Origin: Alloyangia mangrovi
GTDB taxonomy: Bacteria > Pseudomonadota > Alphaproteobacteria > Rhodobacterales > Rhodobacteraceae
Length of the DNA: 64,000 nucleotides
Reading direction: 5' to 3'
Assembly (NCBI RefSeq): GCF_002300555.2
Contig: NZ_NTHN02000006.1
Location: forward strand, 62,001-126,000
Shown: piece after piece, positions 40,339 to 48,431 of the stretch
Numbering within the stretch: the stretch's first letter is position 1
Layout: each line of letters starts with the position of its first letter
Made by a program: the position numbers and the translations under genes
Notes under the pieces: generated by a model
What the model was told of the DNA's origin: nothing
Database searches by the model: none
Seen by the model: only the letters and a program-made list of their open reading frames with translations

Positions 40339-40410
40339 CAATTCGAACAAGATCTGCCGGATCTGGTCGGATCTGGTGAACAAACACCCCTCCCCGAACC
40401 TACGCCTTTT

Positions 40411-40465
40411 GCTTCATGTGAAACGGCGAGAGATCTCTCCACAGGATCCTGTGGAGAGATCTCTC
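40411..40465. promoter_or_regulatory. Composite module B: parS-like site plus perfect 38-base palindrome
   Basis: GCTTCATGTGAAAC (40411-40424, two mismatches to the parS core) precedes a perfect 38-base palindrome at 40428-40465. Its left half reads GAGAGATCTCTCCACAGGA, centred on GGATCC, with AGATCT on each side. The palindrome overlaps the first two bases of the parB stop codon. Each arm contains CTCTCCACA, two mismatches from the DnaA box. It could also terminate transcription, but has no T tract. Confidence 0.65.
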
Positions 40466-41372
40466 AGCGGGCGGCGCTCAGGATTGCACAGAGCTTATCC
40501 AATTCCTCGAAGCTCTCGTAGCTGATCACCAGCTTTCCGCTCTCGGCGCCCGGCGCATTCTGAATCGCGACCTTCATGCCGAGCGCTGCCGAGAGATCCC
40601 CCTCGAGCGCCCGCGTGTCGGCGTCTTTCTGCGCGCCGCCAAAGCCATTAAGACCCTGTTTCGGGGTCTTCTGTGTCTGTGGTTTCGCAAGCTGCTCGGC
40701 TTGGCGGACCGACAGCTTGCGCCTGACGATCTCTTTTGCCAGTTCCTCGGGGTTCTCCGAGGTGATCAGCGTGCGCGCATGGCCGGCGGTCAGCTCGCCC
40801 TCGACCACCATCGTCTGCACCGACTCCGGCAGGTTCAGCAGGCGCAGCAGGTTGGCGATATGACTACGGCTCTTGCCAAGCGCCTCGGCGATCTTTTCCT
40901 GCGTGTGGCCGAAGCGGTTCATCAACTGCTTGTAGCCCGCCGCCTCTTCGATGGCGTTCAGATCCGCGCGCTGGATGTTCTCGATGATCGCGACCTCGAG
41001 CACCTCGATGTCGTCGAACTCACGCACCAGCGCCGGCACTTCGTGCAGCTGCGCCATCTGCGCCGCACGCCAGCGGCGTTCACCCGCGACGATCTCGAAC
41101 TCACCCTCGGCCCCGGGCCGTGGCCGCACGATGATCGGCTGGATAATACCCTTGGTTCGGATCGATTCCGAAAGCTCGTTCAGCTGGTCAGGAGTGAAAG
41201 TCCGGCGCGGCTGATCCTTGTTCGGAAACAGCTTCTCGATCGGGATCATCCGGTCCGGCTGGCGCGGCGCCGCCTCTTCCTCAGCGACCACCGCGGGACG
41301 CACATCCACATCCGACATCAGAGCCGACAGACCCCGCCCGAGTCCCCGACGCATTTCGCGCTTCTCTGCCAT
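40464..41372 (-). CDS. parB: Chromosome partitioning protein ParB
   Basis: 302 aa CTP-dependent clamp that loads at parS. The N-terminal GRGLSALMSD motif, the CTP-binding GERRWRAAQMA (about 97-107), ENIQRADLNAIEEA and the helix-turn-helix QEKIAEALGKSRSHIANLLRLLNLP are all present. The C-terminal dimer domain is LVISYESFEELDKLCAIL. It follows parA by 27 bases. Two perfect parS sites lie within 4 kb upstream in the same gene block. Confidence 0.96.
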   Translation of the reverse strand: MAEKREMRRGLGRGLSALMSDVDVRPAVVAEEEAAPRQPDRMIPIEKLFPNKDQPRRTFTPDQLNELSESIRTKGIIQPIIVRPRPGAEGEFEIVAGERRWRAAQMAQLHEVPALVREFDDIEVLEVAIIENIQRADLNAIEEAAGYKQLMNRFGHTQEKIAEALGKSRSHIANLLRLLNLPESVQTMVVEGELTAGHARTLITSENPEELAKEIVRRKLSVRQAEQLAKPQTQKTPKQGLNGFGGAQKDADTRALEGDLSAALGMKVAIQNAPGAESGKLVISYESFEELDKLCAILSAAR

Positions 41373-41399: not shown

Positions 41400-42210
41400 T
41401 TATGCCGCCATCTGCGCATTGTTGCGCAGCAGCTCGTCAGCCAGCGCGCGATAGGCCAGCGCGCCCTTGGAATTGGTGTCATAGGTCAGCACCGGGCAGG
41501 CATAGGACGGTGCCTCGCTGACCCGGACGTTGCGCGGGATCACCGTGTTGAACACCAGATCTCCGAGGTTGGCACGGGCGTCTTCCTCGACCATCCGCGA
41601 CAAGTTGTTGCGCGCGTCGAACATGGTCAGAACCACGCCTTCGATCCGCAGTTCGGGGTTGGCGCTCTGGCGCACTTCGCGGATCGTCAGCATGAGCTGC
41701 GACAGACCCTCCAGCGCAAAAAAACTCGCTCTGCAGCGGCACCAGGATCGAATGCGCCGCGACCATGGCGTTCACCGTCAGCAGGTTCAGAGACGGCGGG
41801 CAGTCGATCAGGATGAAATCAAACCCGAATTGCGCCATCTCTGCCTGGCGCAGCGCGTCATGCAGCAGGAAGCTGCGCTTCTCGTTCGCCACGAGCTCGA
41901 TGTCAGCCGACGCCAGATCCACCGTCGCCGGGATCAGTTTCAGGTTTTCGGTTTCCGTCTTGAGGATCATGTCCGACAGGGGCGCATCCTCGAGAAGCAG
42001 CTCGTAGGCCGTATATTCCCGCGCCTCAGGCTCGATTCCCAGCCCGGTCGAGGAGTTCCCCTGCGGATCGAGATCGACGATCAGCACCTTCAGACCGCGC
42101 TCTGCCAGCGCGGCACCGAGGTTTATCGTGGTCGTGGTCTTGCCCACCCCGCCCTTCTGGTTGGCAATGGCAACGATCTTGGCCGCGCCGGGCCGGATGG
42201 AATCAGACAT
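41400..42210 (-). CDS. parA: Chromosome partitioning ATPase ParA, frameshifted at an A run
   Basis: Soj/ParA family ATPase that positions ParB-origin complexes. From 42210 the frame has the deviant Walker [30 protein letters not shown] and [18 protein letters not shown]. It breaks in LVPLQSEFF at 41718-41724, seven A on the plus strand. With six, the sequence continues [37 protein letters not shown] and ends at 41400. The repaired protein is about 269 aa. A real frameshift in such a gene would be costly, so a base-calling error is likely. Confidence 0.9.
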
Positions 42211-42823
42211 GAGTCAGCGCTCCGATTTGCAAGACAACCGCGTGAGGATCCGTAAGACTTGTATGCCGTATCAGATCAAACTGCCACATCTTGCGTGCCT
42301 CTGCGATTTCTTTTTCGGCCTGCGCGCCCTTGGGAAAGAGCGCGACGCCATTGTCGCACAGGTGACGATCGGCAAAGCCCAAAAGTTTATCGAGCGACGC
42401 CAGCGCGCGAGCGCTCAACAGGCCCGCACCAAGCGGCGGGATTTCTTCAATTCGGCGCGCCTCGATCTTGGCCTCGACGCCCGTTTCGCGAAGCACAGTG
42501 CGCAGGAAGGCGCATTTGCGCTGGTCACTCTCGACCAGCGTCACCGCCATTTCAGGAGCAAATTCAGCCCGCAGGATGGCGACCACCACACCGGGAAAGC
42601 CTCCGCCGACGCCGAGGTCCGCCCAATGCTGGGGATATTCCTGTGGAATACCCCAGATCTGCGCGGAGTCCACGATGTGCCGCGTCCAGGCTTCTTCGAG
42701 CGTTGTAGGCGAAACAAGATTGATACGCGGATTCCACTTCTTAAGAAGATCCGTGTAGTGCTCGAGGCGGTCCCATGTTTCACGTGAAACACTGAGCCCG
42801 CCTCCAAGATCAAACTGACTCAT
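42203..42823 (-). CDS. rsmG: 16S rRNA (guanine527-N7)-methyltransferase RsmG
   Basis: 206 aa GidB-family methyltransferase. Features are [14 protein letters not shown], the SAM loop [29 protein letters not shown] and [11 protein letters not shown]. Its stop overlaps the parA start region by eight bases and its ATG overlaps the mnmG stop by four. A perfect parS site encodes VSRET at about residues 12-16. Confidence 0.95.
42776..42791. promoter_or_regulatory. parS site (perfect) inside rsmG
   Basis: TGTTTCACGTGAAACA, the exact 16-base consensus bound by ParB. It lies in the rsmG coding sequence, read as VSRET on the minus strand, about 1.4 kb from parB. Confidence 0.92.
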
Positions 42824-44697
42824 GCGCTGCGCGCCCTGTCGTTCCGGCGCAGCCGGATCAGCAGCAGAGAGAGGGCTGCCGGCGTCATTCCGTCGACTTT
42901 TGCGGCCTGCGCAAGCGTCGAGGGTTTCGCACGGGCGAGCTTCTGCTTCAATTCTGTCGAAAGGCCTTCGATGGTCGAGAAATCGAAATCAGCCGGGACT
43001 TGATAGGTCTCGTCGCGCTTCAGAGCTTCAACGTCGCGTTTTTGCCGGTCGATATAATTGGCGTAGAGAGCGTCCTTCTCCAACTGATCGCCGATTTCTG
43101 TCGCTATTGACGAGAGACCCGGCACATGATCACGCAGGAACTCCATTGAGATGTCGGGGAAGGACAGAAGCTGGAACAGGCTACGCCGGGCGCCATCCGC
43201 GTTCATCTTGCGGCCGAGATCGCCTAGTTCTCGAGGGGTCATTGTGATCTCGCTGAGGATCCCCCTGCCCTCTTCGAGCTTTTCCGATTTCTCAAGGAAG
43301 GCCGCCTTGCGCGCTTCGGAAACGCAGCCGAGCGTCATCGCCATGGGCGTCAGCCGCTGGTCCGCATTATCAGCGCGAAGCGAGAGCCGGAATTCGGCGC
43401 GCGAGGTGAACATCCGGTAAGGTTCGGTGACGCCGCGCGAGGTGAGATCGTCGATCATGACGCCGATGTAGCTCTCGGCACGGCTGAAGGTGACTTCTTC
43501 ACGGCCGAGGCTCTGCGCCGCGGCGTTCAGACCCGCGACCATGCCCTGGGCGGCGGCTTCTTCGTACCCCGTGGTGCCGTTGATCTGCCCTGCGAGGTAA
43601 AGCCCCGAGCAGGACTTGATCGAGAGACGAAGATCCAGCGCCCGCGGATCGACGAAATCATATTCGATTGCGTAGCCAGGCTGCAGGATCGTCGCCGCTT
43701 CTAGTCCCACAATGGAATGGACATAAGCCTCCTGCACGTCTTCGGGCAGCGAGGTAGATATCCCGTTCGGATAGACCGTGTGGTCGTCAAGTCCTTCTGG
43801 TTCAAGGAAAATCTGGTGAGATTCCTTGTCCGCAAAGCGCACGATCTTGTCTTCGATCGACGGGCAGTAGCGCGGGCCGATCCCCTCGATATGCCCGCCG
43901 TACATCGCGGATCGCGAGAGGTTATCCCGGATCACCTCGTGCGTGCGCGTGTTGGTATGTGTGATCCCGCAGGAAATCTGCCGGGCGAAGGGCGCCTTCG
44001 ACAGGAAGGAGAACATGGCGGGATCCTCGTCGCCAGGCTGGCTGTCGAGGATATCCCAGTTGATCGTCCGACCGTCGAGTCGCGGTGGCGTGCCGGTTTT
44101 CAGACGCCCCAGCGGCAGAGCCATTTCATCGAGGCGCTCAGCCAGCTTCACCGCCGGCTTGTCGCCCATGCGACCACCCGGGCGCTTCTGATCGCCAATG
44201 TGAATGACGCCGCGCAGGAACGTGCCGGTGGTGAGCACCACGGCACCGGATCTGAGCTCGGATCCGTCGGCAAGTATCACGCCTTGCACCAGGTCGCCGG
44301 TTTTCAAGAGATCCGTGACCTCCCCTTCCACGATGGAAAGGTTCGGCGCGGCTTCCATCTCGCGAAGCATGGCTTCGCGATAGAGTTTCCGGTCGGCCTG
44401 GGTGCGCGGGCCCTGAACCGCTGGGCCCTTGCGCCGGTTCAGAAGGCGGAACTGGATGCCCGCCTGATCCGCAACGCGGCCCATCACGCCGTCCATGGCG
44501 TCAATTTCGCGCACCAGATGGCCTTTTCCGAGCCCGCCGATGGCCGGATTGCACGACATGACCCCGATCCCGCCTCGGGTCAGGGTGACAAGCGCTGTTC
44601 TCGCGCCCATTCGCGCCGAAGCCGCGGCGGCCTCGGTGCCGGCATGTCCGCCGCCCACGACGACGACGTCTAAATCGAGTTGTTTCACGTGAAACAC
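42820..44697 (-). CDS. mnmG: tRNA uridine-5-carboxymethylaminomethyl modification enzyme MnmG
   Basis: 625 aa FAD protein (GidA) that acts with MnmE on wobble uridine 34. The FAD motif [20 protein letters not shown] is near the N-terminus, with [19 protein letters not shown] and the C-terminal four-helix region ([17 protein letters not shown]). The start codon is GTG at 44697, read as MFHVKQ, and overlaps a perfect parS site. The gene is three bases from mnmE. Confidence 0.96.
44681..44696. promoter_or_regulatory. parS site (perfect) at the mnmG start
   Basis: TGTTTCACGTGAAACA, exact consensus. It covers codons 1-6 of mnmG and the 3-base mnmE-mnmG junction is immediately beside it. Confidence 0.93.
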
Positions 44698-45984: not shown

Positions 45985-46008
45985 CCCCGCCTCCTTTGCG
46001 GATTATCC

Positions 46009-47292
46009 TTAGCTGTTCATCGAGTCGAAGAACTCGCCGTTCGTCTTTGTTTGTTTGAGCTTGGACAGCAGGAACTCGATCGCGTCGGTCGTGCCCATCG
46101 GGTTGAGGATGCGGCGCAGCACGAAGGTCTTCTGCAGGTCGACCTTATCGGTGAGCAGGTCCTCTTTCCGGGTGCCCGACTTGAGAATGTCGATCGCCGG
46201 GAAGACGCGCTTGTCGGCGACCTTGCGGTCGAGCACGATCTCCGAGTTGCCGGTGCCCTTGAATTCTTCGAAGATCACCTCGTCCATGCGCGAGCCGGTG
46301 TCGATCAGCGCGGTGGCGATGATGGTGAGCGAGCCACCCTCTTCGATATTGCGCGCGGCACCGAAGAAACGCTTCGGACGCTGCAGCGCGTTCGCATCGA
46401 CACCACCGGTCAGGACCTTGCCCGACGACGGCACTACGGTGTTGAACGCCCTACCAAGTCTTGTGATCGAGTCGAGAAGAATCACAACATCTCGTTTATG
46501 CTCAACGAGACGCTTGGCTTTCTCGATGACCATTTCCGAGACGGCCACGTGGCGGGTTGCCGGTTCGTCGAAGGTCGAGGAGATCACCTCGCCCTTCACC
46601 GAACGCTGCATGTCGGTGACTTCCTCGGGACGTTCGTCGATCAGCAGGACGATCAGATAGCACTCTGGGTGGTTCTTCTCTATCGAGCTGGCGATGTTCT
46701 GCAGCAGCACCGTCTTACCGGTGCGCGGCGGCGCCACGATGAGCGACCGCTGGCCCTTGCCGATCGGCGCGACCAGGTCAATGATCCGGGCCGACTTGTC
46801 CTTGATCGTCGAATCCTCGATTTCCATCTTCAGGCGCTCGTCGGGATAGAGCGGCGTCAGGTTGTCGAAGGCGATCTTGTGGCGGGCGCGGTCCGGATCC
46901 TCGAAGTTGATCGCCGAGACGTCGACCAGCGCGAAGTAGCGCTCTTCGTTGTCGGGCGCGCGGATCTCGCCTTCGATGGTGTCGCCGGTGCGCAGCGAGT
47001 ACTTCCGGATCATGTCGGGCGAGACATAGATGTCATCGGGGCCCGGCAGGTAGTTTGCCTCGGGCGAACGCAGGAAGCCGAAGCCGTCCTGCAGCACTTC
47101 GAGAACGCCGTCTCCGAAGATGGTCCAGCCTTCGTCCGCGCGCTCGCGCAGGATCTGGAACATCATCTCGCCCTTGCGCATCGTCGATGCGTTTTCGATC
47201 TCGAGCTCCTCGGCCATCGCCAGGAGATCCTTGGGGCTCTGCGCCTTGAGATCGGACAGGTTCAGACGCTCGACGATATCGGCATCAGTCAT
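46009..47292 (-). CDS. rho: Transcription termination factor Rho
   Basis: 427 aa hexameric RNA helicase. The N-terminal Rho domain ([25 protein letters not shown]) is followed by the cold-shock RNA-binding fold with [23 protein letters not shown]. The ATPase core has [16 protein letters not shown] (Walker A), [16 protein letters not shown] and [13 protein letters not shown]. The start at 47292 ([11 protein letters not shown]) follows a strong GGAGGAATTC. An in-frame extension to 47361 is unlikely. It reads leftward away from the putative origin. Confidence 0.96.
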
Positions 47293-47436
47293 GAATTCCT
47301 CCGGGCCGCGGTCGGCCGTCGTTTCGCAGGTCTCTGCGTGTGTCTTTTGGGAAGGTCCCACCAGAACAGGTGTTGAGAAGATGCCTATCCCCTCCCCCGG
47401 TCGAAGTCAATTCCCGGAGCCGTACCGAGCGGCCCG

Positions 47437-47831
47437 GCTTAGATTCCAAAAAATTAAATAAAGAAAAGAAGAGATGATTTTGATTTTAGGTAACCCGACT
47501 CCGGTGGATCAAATGTTTCACGGAGCTCTGTCCACGGCGGATCCCTCTGTGGATAGATCTGCGGAGATCCTTCGGATCCGCTTTGGGCGAATCCACGTTT
47601 GGATCATATAAATAAGCCTTTATATCGCACGGTACGCCATTGTGGACAGATCTTGGAGAGATCCGGTCGGATCCGCTTCTCCACAGCCGGGAGTTATCCA
47701 AACCCACAGACTCAGGAATCACCGCGACTCAACGTGAACCTTGAGAGATCTCCCCAGCCTTGAAACCGGAGGCGATTTTCCCCAGAAGCTTCCCCTGACA
47801 AAGGCCCAAGTCTGCGAACAGGTTTATCCCC
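47437..47831. other. Putative chromosomal replication origin (oriC)
   Basis: Intergenic region between divergent rho and maf, the expected place for an alphaproteobacterial origin. An AT-rich stretch (47440-47490) and a smaller one (47600-47632) could be unwinding elements. DnaA-box-like 9-mers with one mismatch to TTATCCACA lie at 47548-47556 (minus strand, CTATCCACA), 47677-47685 (TTCTCCACA), 47694-47702 (TTATCCAAA) and 47824-47832 (TTATCCCCA). Weaker ones lie near 47528, 47589 and 47641. Ten GATC sites lie at 47507-47750. A TGTTTCACG half parS is at 47514. The hemE gene often found here is absent. Confidence 0.75.
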
Positions 47832-48431
47832 ATGAGTCTTCCGCTCGTCCTCGCCTCCGGCTCCCAGATCCGCGCCGAACTGCTGCGCGCCGCGGGCGTT
47901 CCCTTCGGAATCGAGGTCGCGCGCGTCGATGAATGCTCGATTCGCGACTCGCTCCTTGCCGAGGGCGCGGCGCCGCGCGACGTGGCGGACGCGCTGGCCG
48001 AGTACAAGGCGCGCAAAGTCTCGGCGCGCAATCCCGGCGCGCTGGTGCTTGGCTGCGACCAGGTGCTGAGCTGCAACGGCAAGCTCTATTCCAAGCCCGA
48101 AAGCCCCGAGGAGTCCCGCGCTCAGCTCATGGAGCTGCGGGACCAGCGGCTGCACCTGCTGTCGGCGGCAGTTATCTATGAGTCTGGCGAGCCGGTCTGG
48201 CGTCACGTCGGAGTCGCGCGCCTGAAGATGCGCGCCTTCTCCGAAGCCTATCTTGATGACTATATAGAGCGAAACTGGGAGAGCCTGCGCACGTCCGTGG
48301 GCGGTTTCAAGCTGGAGGAGGAAGGCGTGCGGCTGTTTGCGAGCATCGAGGGGAGCCATTTCACAATTCTGGGGCTGCCCCTGCTGGAGCTTCTGGGGTT
48401 CCTGCAAGTGCGCGGGGTCATTGCCGGATGA
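47832..48431 (+). CDS. maf: Maf/YceF family nucleotide pyrophosphatase
   Basis: 199 aa Maf-like protein that hydrolyses non-canonical or modified nucleotides. LVLASGSQIRAELLRAAGV at the N-terminus replaces the usual ASxSPRR with SGSQIR. GALVLGCDQVLSCNGKLYSKP (catalytic Asp) and WESLRTSVGGFKLEEEG follow. First gene right of the putative origin, followed by aroE with a four-base overlap. Confidence 0.92.
   Translation: MSLPLVLASGSQIRAELLRAAGVPFGIEVARVDECSIRDSLLAEGAAPRDVADALAEYKARKVSARNPGALVLGCDQVLSCNGKLYSKPESPEESRAQLMELRDQRLHLLSAAVIYESGEPVWRHVGVARLKMRAFSEAYLDDYIERNWESLRTSVGGFKLEEEGVRLFASIEGSHFTILGLPLLELLGFLQVRGVIAG

Follow-up and report, generated by a model that had tools for sequence, protein, structure and literature searches.

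The rho–maf intergenic region as the almost certain chromosomal replication origin of Alloyangia mangrovi

Where does chromosome replication start in Alloyangia mangrovi, and can a gap between rho and maf that lacks the neighbor hemE be the origin? We examined this in a 64,000-nucleotide stretch, here called the window (G000:C136:62001-126000), which belongs to a contig of 142,525 bases in a 5.53 Mb assembly of 169 contigs. A first-pass annotation of the same DNA had proposed a putative oriC between two divergent genes and let it start at 47437. The divergent genes are indeed rho and maf, and the intergenic region in fact begins at 47362 (Table 1). Because the GC-skew minimum, the lowest duplex stability, a cluster of DnaA boxes and a near-fixed conserved element converge on the same few hundred bases, with parS and parAB nearby, we conclude from sequence comparison that the chromosomal oriC is almost certainly this rho–maf region (probability about 0.95), which supports the putative reading. 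The neighbors are mnmE, mnmG, rsmG, parA and parB to the left and aroE, dnaQ and secB to the right. As an origin the locus is well supported but ordinary, lying at the usual place among its relatives.

Table 1. Positions, in window coordinates, of the origin region and associated features.
Feature	Position	Strand	Remark
parB	40464..41372	-	
parA	41479..42210	-	
parS, perfect	42776..42791	.	
parS, perfect	44681..44696	.	
rho	46009..47361	-	left flank of oriC
oriC (almost certain), rho–maf intergenic region	47362..47831	.	470 bp, GC 0.52 vs window GC 0.66
AT-rich duplex-unwinding tract (predicted)	47438..47488	.	GC 0.20
Conserved opening element GATGATTTTGATTTTAGG	47473..47490	+	top-ranked matrix match on contig
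DnaA box TGATCCACC, 2 mismatches	47503..47511	-	beside opening element, 30 bp from element start
DnaA box CTATCCACA, 1 mismatch	47548..47556	-	block CTGTGGATA kept in same-genus genome
GATC-rich duplication, copy 1	47548..47584	+	inside origin
Second AT-rich tract	47598..47627	.	GC 0.27
GATC-rich duplication, copy 2	47641..47679	+	inside origin
Weak DnaA box CTGTCCACA, 2 mismatches	47641..47649	-	
DnaA box TTCTCCACA, 1 mismatch	47677..47685	+	
DnaA box TTATCCAAA, 1 mismatch	47694..47702	+	within longest block common to same-genus genome
DnaA box TTATCCCCA, 1 mismatch	47824..47832	+	overlaps maf's first base
maf	47832..48431	+	right flank of oriC

DnaA boxes were scored as 9-mers by their number of mismatches to the consensus TTATCCACA. 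The whole contig holds no perfect box and 10 one-mismatch boxes, four of which lie in the rho–maf gap, as the first-pass annotation had claimed; outside these four, no 400-bp stretch of the contig has more than one. Simulation of 200 first-order Markov contigs gave a mean of 5.2 boxes and never more than two within 300 bp. The cluster is beyond chance, as is looked for in a bacterial chromosomal oriC. Four further sites with two mismatches are present in the gap, including TGATCCACC at 47503.

An oriC is also expected to have an AT-rich, easily unwound tract adjoining its boxes, and this is what we found. Both AT-rich tracts described earlier were recovered in DNA of otherwise high GC content (Table 1), and nearest-neighbor energies put the start of the contig's weakest duplex at 47438-47439 for each of the lengths 30, 50 and 80 bp. 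The minimum for 50 bp is -52.6 kcal/mol vs a contig mean of -79.5 (s.d. 4.6) and -59.8 at the next site, and the 30-bp minimum is nearly tied with that of a second contig site (-30.5 vs -30.4).

The cumulative GC-skew minimum of the contig falls at window position 47906 and the skew rises afterwards. The first-pass annotation had named a minimum located elsewhere as what would speak against the origin; as far as the assembly allows, with a scan that spans 142.5 kb of the 5.53 Mb in 169 contigs, the minimum is 75 bp beyond the end of the region. The purine/pyrimidine minimum of the contig is at 47959, and the measures are not in full agreement: keto/amino reaches its minimum at 45993, T-A at 40397. 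Among relatives, we sampled four of the seven single-contig genomes matched in the family search, using 20 stretches of 20 kb per genome (16 evenly spread and 4 beside rho). After removal of the mean skew, the minimum lay within 20 kb of rho in three of these four: at the rho boundary in G123 (2455674 vs rho 2455045) and G141 (4218510 vs rho 4217878), and 20 kb away in G055 (103783 vs rho 123784). It lay approximately 166 kb away (2900540 vs rho 2734817) in G101, a genome with weak skew. Without detrending, the minima of G101 and G141 are 20 kb from rho, that of G123 is at 2744376, approximately 289 kb from rho, and that of G055 is at the contig end, approximately 124 kb from rho counting around the circular chromosome. 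Given the sparse sampling, the skew minima of the relatives are support, not proof, for an origin between rho and maf.

Segregation genes lie close by, as is characteristic of alphaproteobacterial origin loci: two perfect parS sites and parAB are within a few kb, in agreement with the earlier claim of parS-parAB within 8 kb. The half parS site TGTTTCACG that had also been reported is present at 47514; it is not kept in the same-genus genome and is probably there by chance. One study proposes parAB as a reference point for curating alphaproteobacterial origins by hand and finds dnaA conserved near ori in three of the five orders studied (PMC8116508). In Rhodobacter sphaeroides, oriC1 was located by cumulative GC skew and tracked with ParB1 (PMC6315104). 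The origins predicted for Rhodobacteraceae by Kopejtka et al. 2019 (PMC6699656) come from the same wider group as our window, and they and the oriC of Paracoccus yeei (PMC6209633) share with it a skew minimum, DnaA boxes and an AT-rich intergenic region near parAB. The P. yeei oriC is a 406-bp AT-rich intergenic region near parAB with dnaA 965 kb away (PMC6209633), vs 24 kb in our genome. Neither rho nor maf is named as a flank of these origins in the accessible parts of the two papers (PMC6699656, PMC6209633).

The region was then compared across relatives. From 80 named loci we took the 25 (L014-L038) that form a Rhodobacterales-type set by a Rho identity of at least 85%, and added the best 30 loci of a family search with rho matches in 138 of 149 genomes; these are the closest loci by Rho, not an even sample. 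Removal of L018 (which ends before maf), the own-genome locus and the duplicate L110 left 53 regions including the window. In their last 390 bp before maf they contain 107 one-mismatch DnaA boxes vs a shuffled mean of 5.7 (maximum 12), with at least one box in 49 of 53, and at least 33 of the 53 end in a TCCAC or TCCCC 9-mer. The AT-rich zone of the mid-origin, approximately 240-210 bp before maf, recurs in the mean of the 53 regions. The same-genus genome conserves the opening element, the region of the 47503 box, CTGTGGATA and a 35-bp block at 47689-47723, the longest shared block, in which 33 of 35 columns are identical (2 differences). Two GANTC sites, at 47709 and 47716, lie inside this block, which we note only as an observation.

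In the opening element a purine-rich tract precedes GATGATG, and a short run rich in T separates GATGATG from TAGG. Scored with a matrix derived from these same 53-region rows, the element (score >10) was found on the expected strand in 51 of 53 regions and on the other strand in none; L029 and L038 are the only regions without it. It starts at a median of 353 bp before maf (interquartile range 350-364.5, range 299-382), and its place is unchanged whether the other neighbor is hemJ or rho. In 46 of the 51 element-bearing regions the next 50 bp contain a DnaA box with no more than two mismatches, and 37 of these 46 boxes, the window's included, are 29-31 bp from the element start. When the matrix was rebuilt from 49 relatives, with neither the window nor its same-genus relative included, position 47473 still ranked first of 284,968 contig placements, a ranking to be read with the caveat that the window had taken part in the iteration that fixed the row positions and that the AT-rich tract alone would favor this place. 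The remaining seven of the top eight matches are shifts of the same site, all eight lying at 47465-47476. Outside the Rhodobacterales, the element scores >10 in 10 of 37 ppsR-hemE gaps on the expected strand and in none on the opposite one (shuffled gaps: mean 0.45, maximum 3), so by this matrix conservation beyond the order is partial. A search by title and abstract start, with most subscription journals outside its reach, returned no earlier description of the element; we do not claim that it is absent from print.

Other regulatory motifs gave a mixed picture. GANTC, the CcrM site, is not enriched in the 53 regions (87 vs 89.7 expected), and no exact IHF consensus occurs in the window origin, with eight across all regions. 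The CtrA site TTAA-N7-TTAA occurs five times in the 53 regions, in five of them (shuffled 0.7, maximum 3), and not at all in the window region; control of the window origin by CtrA through this motif was rejected on that absence. The hexamer CCGGTT is over-represented in the last 390 bp of the 53 regions (35 vs a shuffled 14.0, maximum 24), occurring in 26 of them and once in the window.

The element invites comparison with the basal unwinding system (BUS), and in the window the box and tract are presumably oriented as in B. subtilis. Both systems have a DnaA box adjoining an AT-rich tract with sequence of a 3-base period. Under the published BUS rule, a DnaA box (two mismatches or fewer) is separated by a spacer of 0-16 bp from three or more NAN DnaA-trios (PMC8287927). 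The window does not fit this rule, nor do most of the element-bearing regions (10 of 51 fit). A full-letter shuffle gives 3.7 fits (maximum 8) and a shuffle of the tract only gives 20.7 (maximum 26), meaning that a BUS fit is commoner here than in random letters and rarer than tract composition alone would give. We therefore rejected BUS membership of the window origin, the rule being unmatched in the window and the 10 of 51 falling below the tract-only 20.7. Relaxing the spacer to 34 bp raises the fit to 46 of 51 vs 32.5 (maximum 38) in the tract-only shuffle, an excess that is suggestive only. Opening may nonetheless work in a BUS-like manner. We tentatively propose, as a possibility that we hold at less than even odds, that Rhodobacterales origins have in common an opening module specific to their lineage, ordered as purine-rich tract, GATGATG..TAGG, approximately 10 bp and a reversed DnaA box, approximately 353 bp from maf, which DnaA may open by a longer reach or by off-register trios. 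The near-fixed element and its poor BUS fit are the only points here that deserve follow-up; the poor BUS fit is modestly new, as is the GATC-rich duplication described below.

The absence of hemE beside the origin, reported earlier, holds: the hemE of this genome is on contig C92. PF03618 (Kinase-PPPase) has no match in the assembly, which is 99.35% complete, and the best TIGR00701 match falls below the cut-off, on C141. Neither hemE nor ppsR, the name that we take for the Kinase-PPPase gene, was found at any of the 25 named Rhodobacterales-type loci (one of which stops short of maf) or at the 29 further family loci, and hemJ stays at 20 of the 25 and 17 of the 29. Judged by gene order, the absence of hemE is a trait of the lineage, not a peculiarity of this genome. 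A ppsR-hemE gap of 60-2000 bp occurs in 37 of the remaining 55 named loci; within the reach of each contig, these loci nearly always show the order maf-ppsR-[gap]-hemE-hemJ-rho. In a Brevundimonas locus (L068), for instance, the Pfam order is Maf, Kinase-PPPase, URO-D, a frame with ferrochelatase and UPF0093 matches, and Rho. The 37 gaps hold 57 boxes vs 3.0 (maximum 9) after letter shuffling, with boxes in 25 of them. One MAG locus labeled Rhodobacteraceae (L047) has a Rho identity of 77% and the ppsR-hemE layout; it is probably mislabeled and was left out of the Rhodobacterales-type set.

By this synteny the rho–maf locus appears to be the counterpart of the site between ppsR and hemE that serves as origin in the Caulobacter type. 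Since hemE and ppsR are gone from the flanks while the place in the gene order is kept, the origin would have stayed put and its neighbors left. The Caulobacter-type origin, Cori, lies between hemE and the Kinase-PPPase gene, at hemE/RP001. The window origin is like Cori in its corresponding place in conserved synteny, its DnaA boxes and its AT-rich tract, and unlike it in having neither the hemE and Kinase-PPPase flanks nor the TTAA-N7-TTAA CtrA site. The Caulobacter G-box TGATCCACA (PMC4285127) resembles the window's TGATCCACC at 47503.

The gene dnaA shares its contig with oriC and is 24 kb further to the right (contig 133678-135051), and in many bacteria oriC adjoins dnaA. The true origin might on that account be at or just upstream of dnaA, leaving the rho–maf gap as only a DnaA-regulated divergent promoter. 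Against this, the 0.68 kb before dnaA contain no one-mismatch DnaA box, and the eight best matrix matches all fall elsewhere, on which grounds we rejected an origin there; the contig skew is already rising well ahead of dnaA, and it is the boxes and element between rho and maf that are conserved in the relatives examined. We regard a dnaA-site origin as extremely improbable. Two matches to the DnaA family besides dnaA, both below the cut-off (G000 C78:10402-10707 and C84:48384-48677), could, as a guess, be Hda-like proteins. The boxes might alternatively serve DnaA-dependent transcription of rho and/or maf without any origin: the gene order suggests that divergent promoters must sit in the gap, and one box overlaps the maf start. 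Such regulation leaves unexplained the skew minimum and the contig-wide stability minimum, as well as an element and boxes that sit approximately 350 bp from maf whether the neighbor is hemJ or rho, and we give it hardly any credence.

How the origin is controlled is a separate matter, raised by the GATC-rich duplication. Its imperfect copies of 37 and 39 bp (32 of 39 aligned columns identical) contain DnaA-box-like and GGATCC/AGATCT sequence, and the rho–maf region as a whole holds 10 GATC, 3 AGATCT and 3 GGATCC. The sequence (T/G)GGATCA(A/T) is the I-site consensus. Compared with shuffles, the window region is enriched in GATC (10 vs 3.5), AGATCT (3 vs 0.2) and (T/G)GGATCA(A/T) (2 vs 0.2), which counts for Dam/SeqA-like sequestration, or E. 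coli-type ATP-DnaA sites, acting through the duplication. The same can be said of GGATC (88 vs 56.4, shuffled maximum 76) and (T/G)GGATCA(A/T) (14 vs 4.8, shuffled maximum 11), both raised across the 53 regions, yet these probably reflect overlap with DnaA-box variants such as TGATCCACA. In E. coli oriC, SeqA binds GATC and AGATCT is a single-strand DnaA site (PMC4285127); the same source, however, describes AGATCT as so far exclusive to E. coli and sequestration as exclusive to a few Dam-bearing proteobacteria. In a Dam/SeqA origin GATC would be both over-represented and conserved, and here it is enriched in the window and not conserved: the 53 regions have scarcely more GATC than their shuffles (110 vs 92.7 +/- 8.8) and no clear excess of AGATCT (7 vs 4.4), and the same span of the same-genus genome has a single GATC and no GATC-rich blocks. 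On these grounds we rejected the GATC/AGATCT blocks as a family-wide feature and consider such control of the origin very unlikely. The duplication is treated as species-specific. The window origin is like E. coli oriC in its DnaA boxes, unwinding tract and GATC-rich stretches, and unlike it in lacking a perfect box and in that its GATC-rich blocks are not found in the same-genus genome. In Tranquillimonas alkanivorans (L022), the last 390 bp before maf hold 11 CGGATCC/GGATCCG, the highest number of the 53 regions.

At the rho–maf oriC, initiation could proceed as follows. DnaA would occupy the boxes at 47503-47832, and a filament would nucleate at the minus-strand box at 47503 and spread leftward over the GATGAT/TAGG element and the purine-rich tract, melting 47438-47490. 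Helicases would load at the melted tract and two forks would depart in opposite directions, passing rho, mnmEG and parAB on one side and maf, aroE and dnaQ on the other, and the sister origins would then be drawn apart by ParB bound at the two parS sites (42776 and 44681). In this order hemE and ppsR, and here hemJ too, would have been lost or moved, leaving rho and maf as the flanks.

These results place the oriC of this genome at the resolution of a single gene gap despite a fragmented assembly. For the relatives examined they provide a rule: seek the GATGATG/TAGG element approximately 353 bp before maf, between maf and hemJ or rho. The indicator genes of Ori-Finder include hemE, maf and gidA (mnmG) (PMC3794950); here hemE, on another contig, would mislead, and maf and gidA point correctly. 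These bacteria appear to have kept the alphaproteobacterial origin site though its usual neighbors, hemE and ppsR, were lost.
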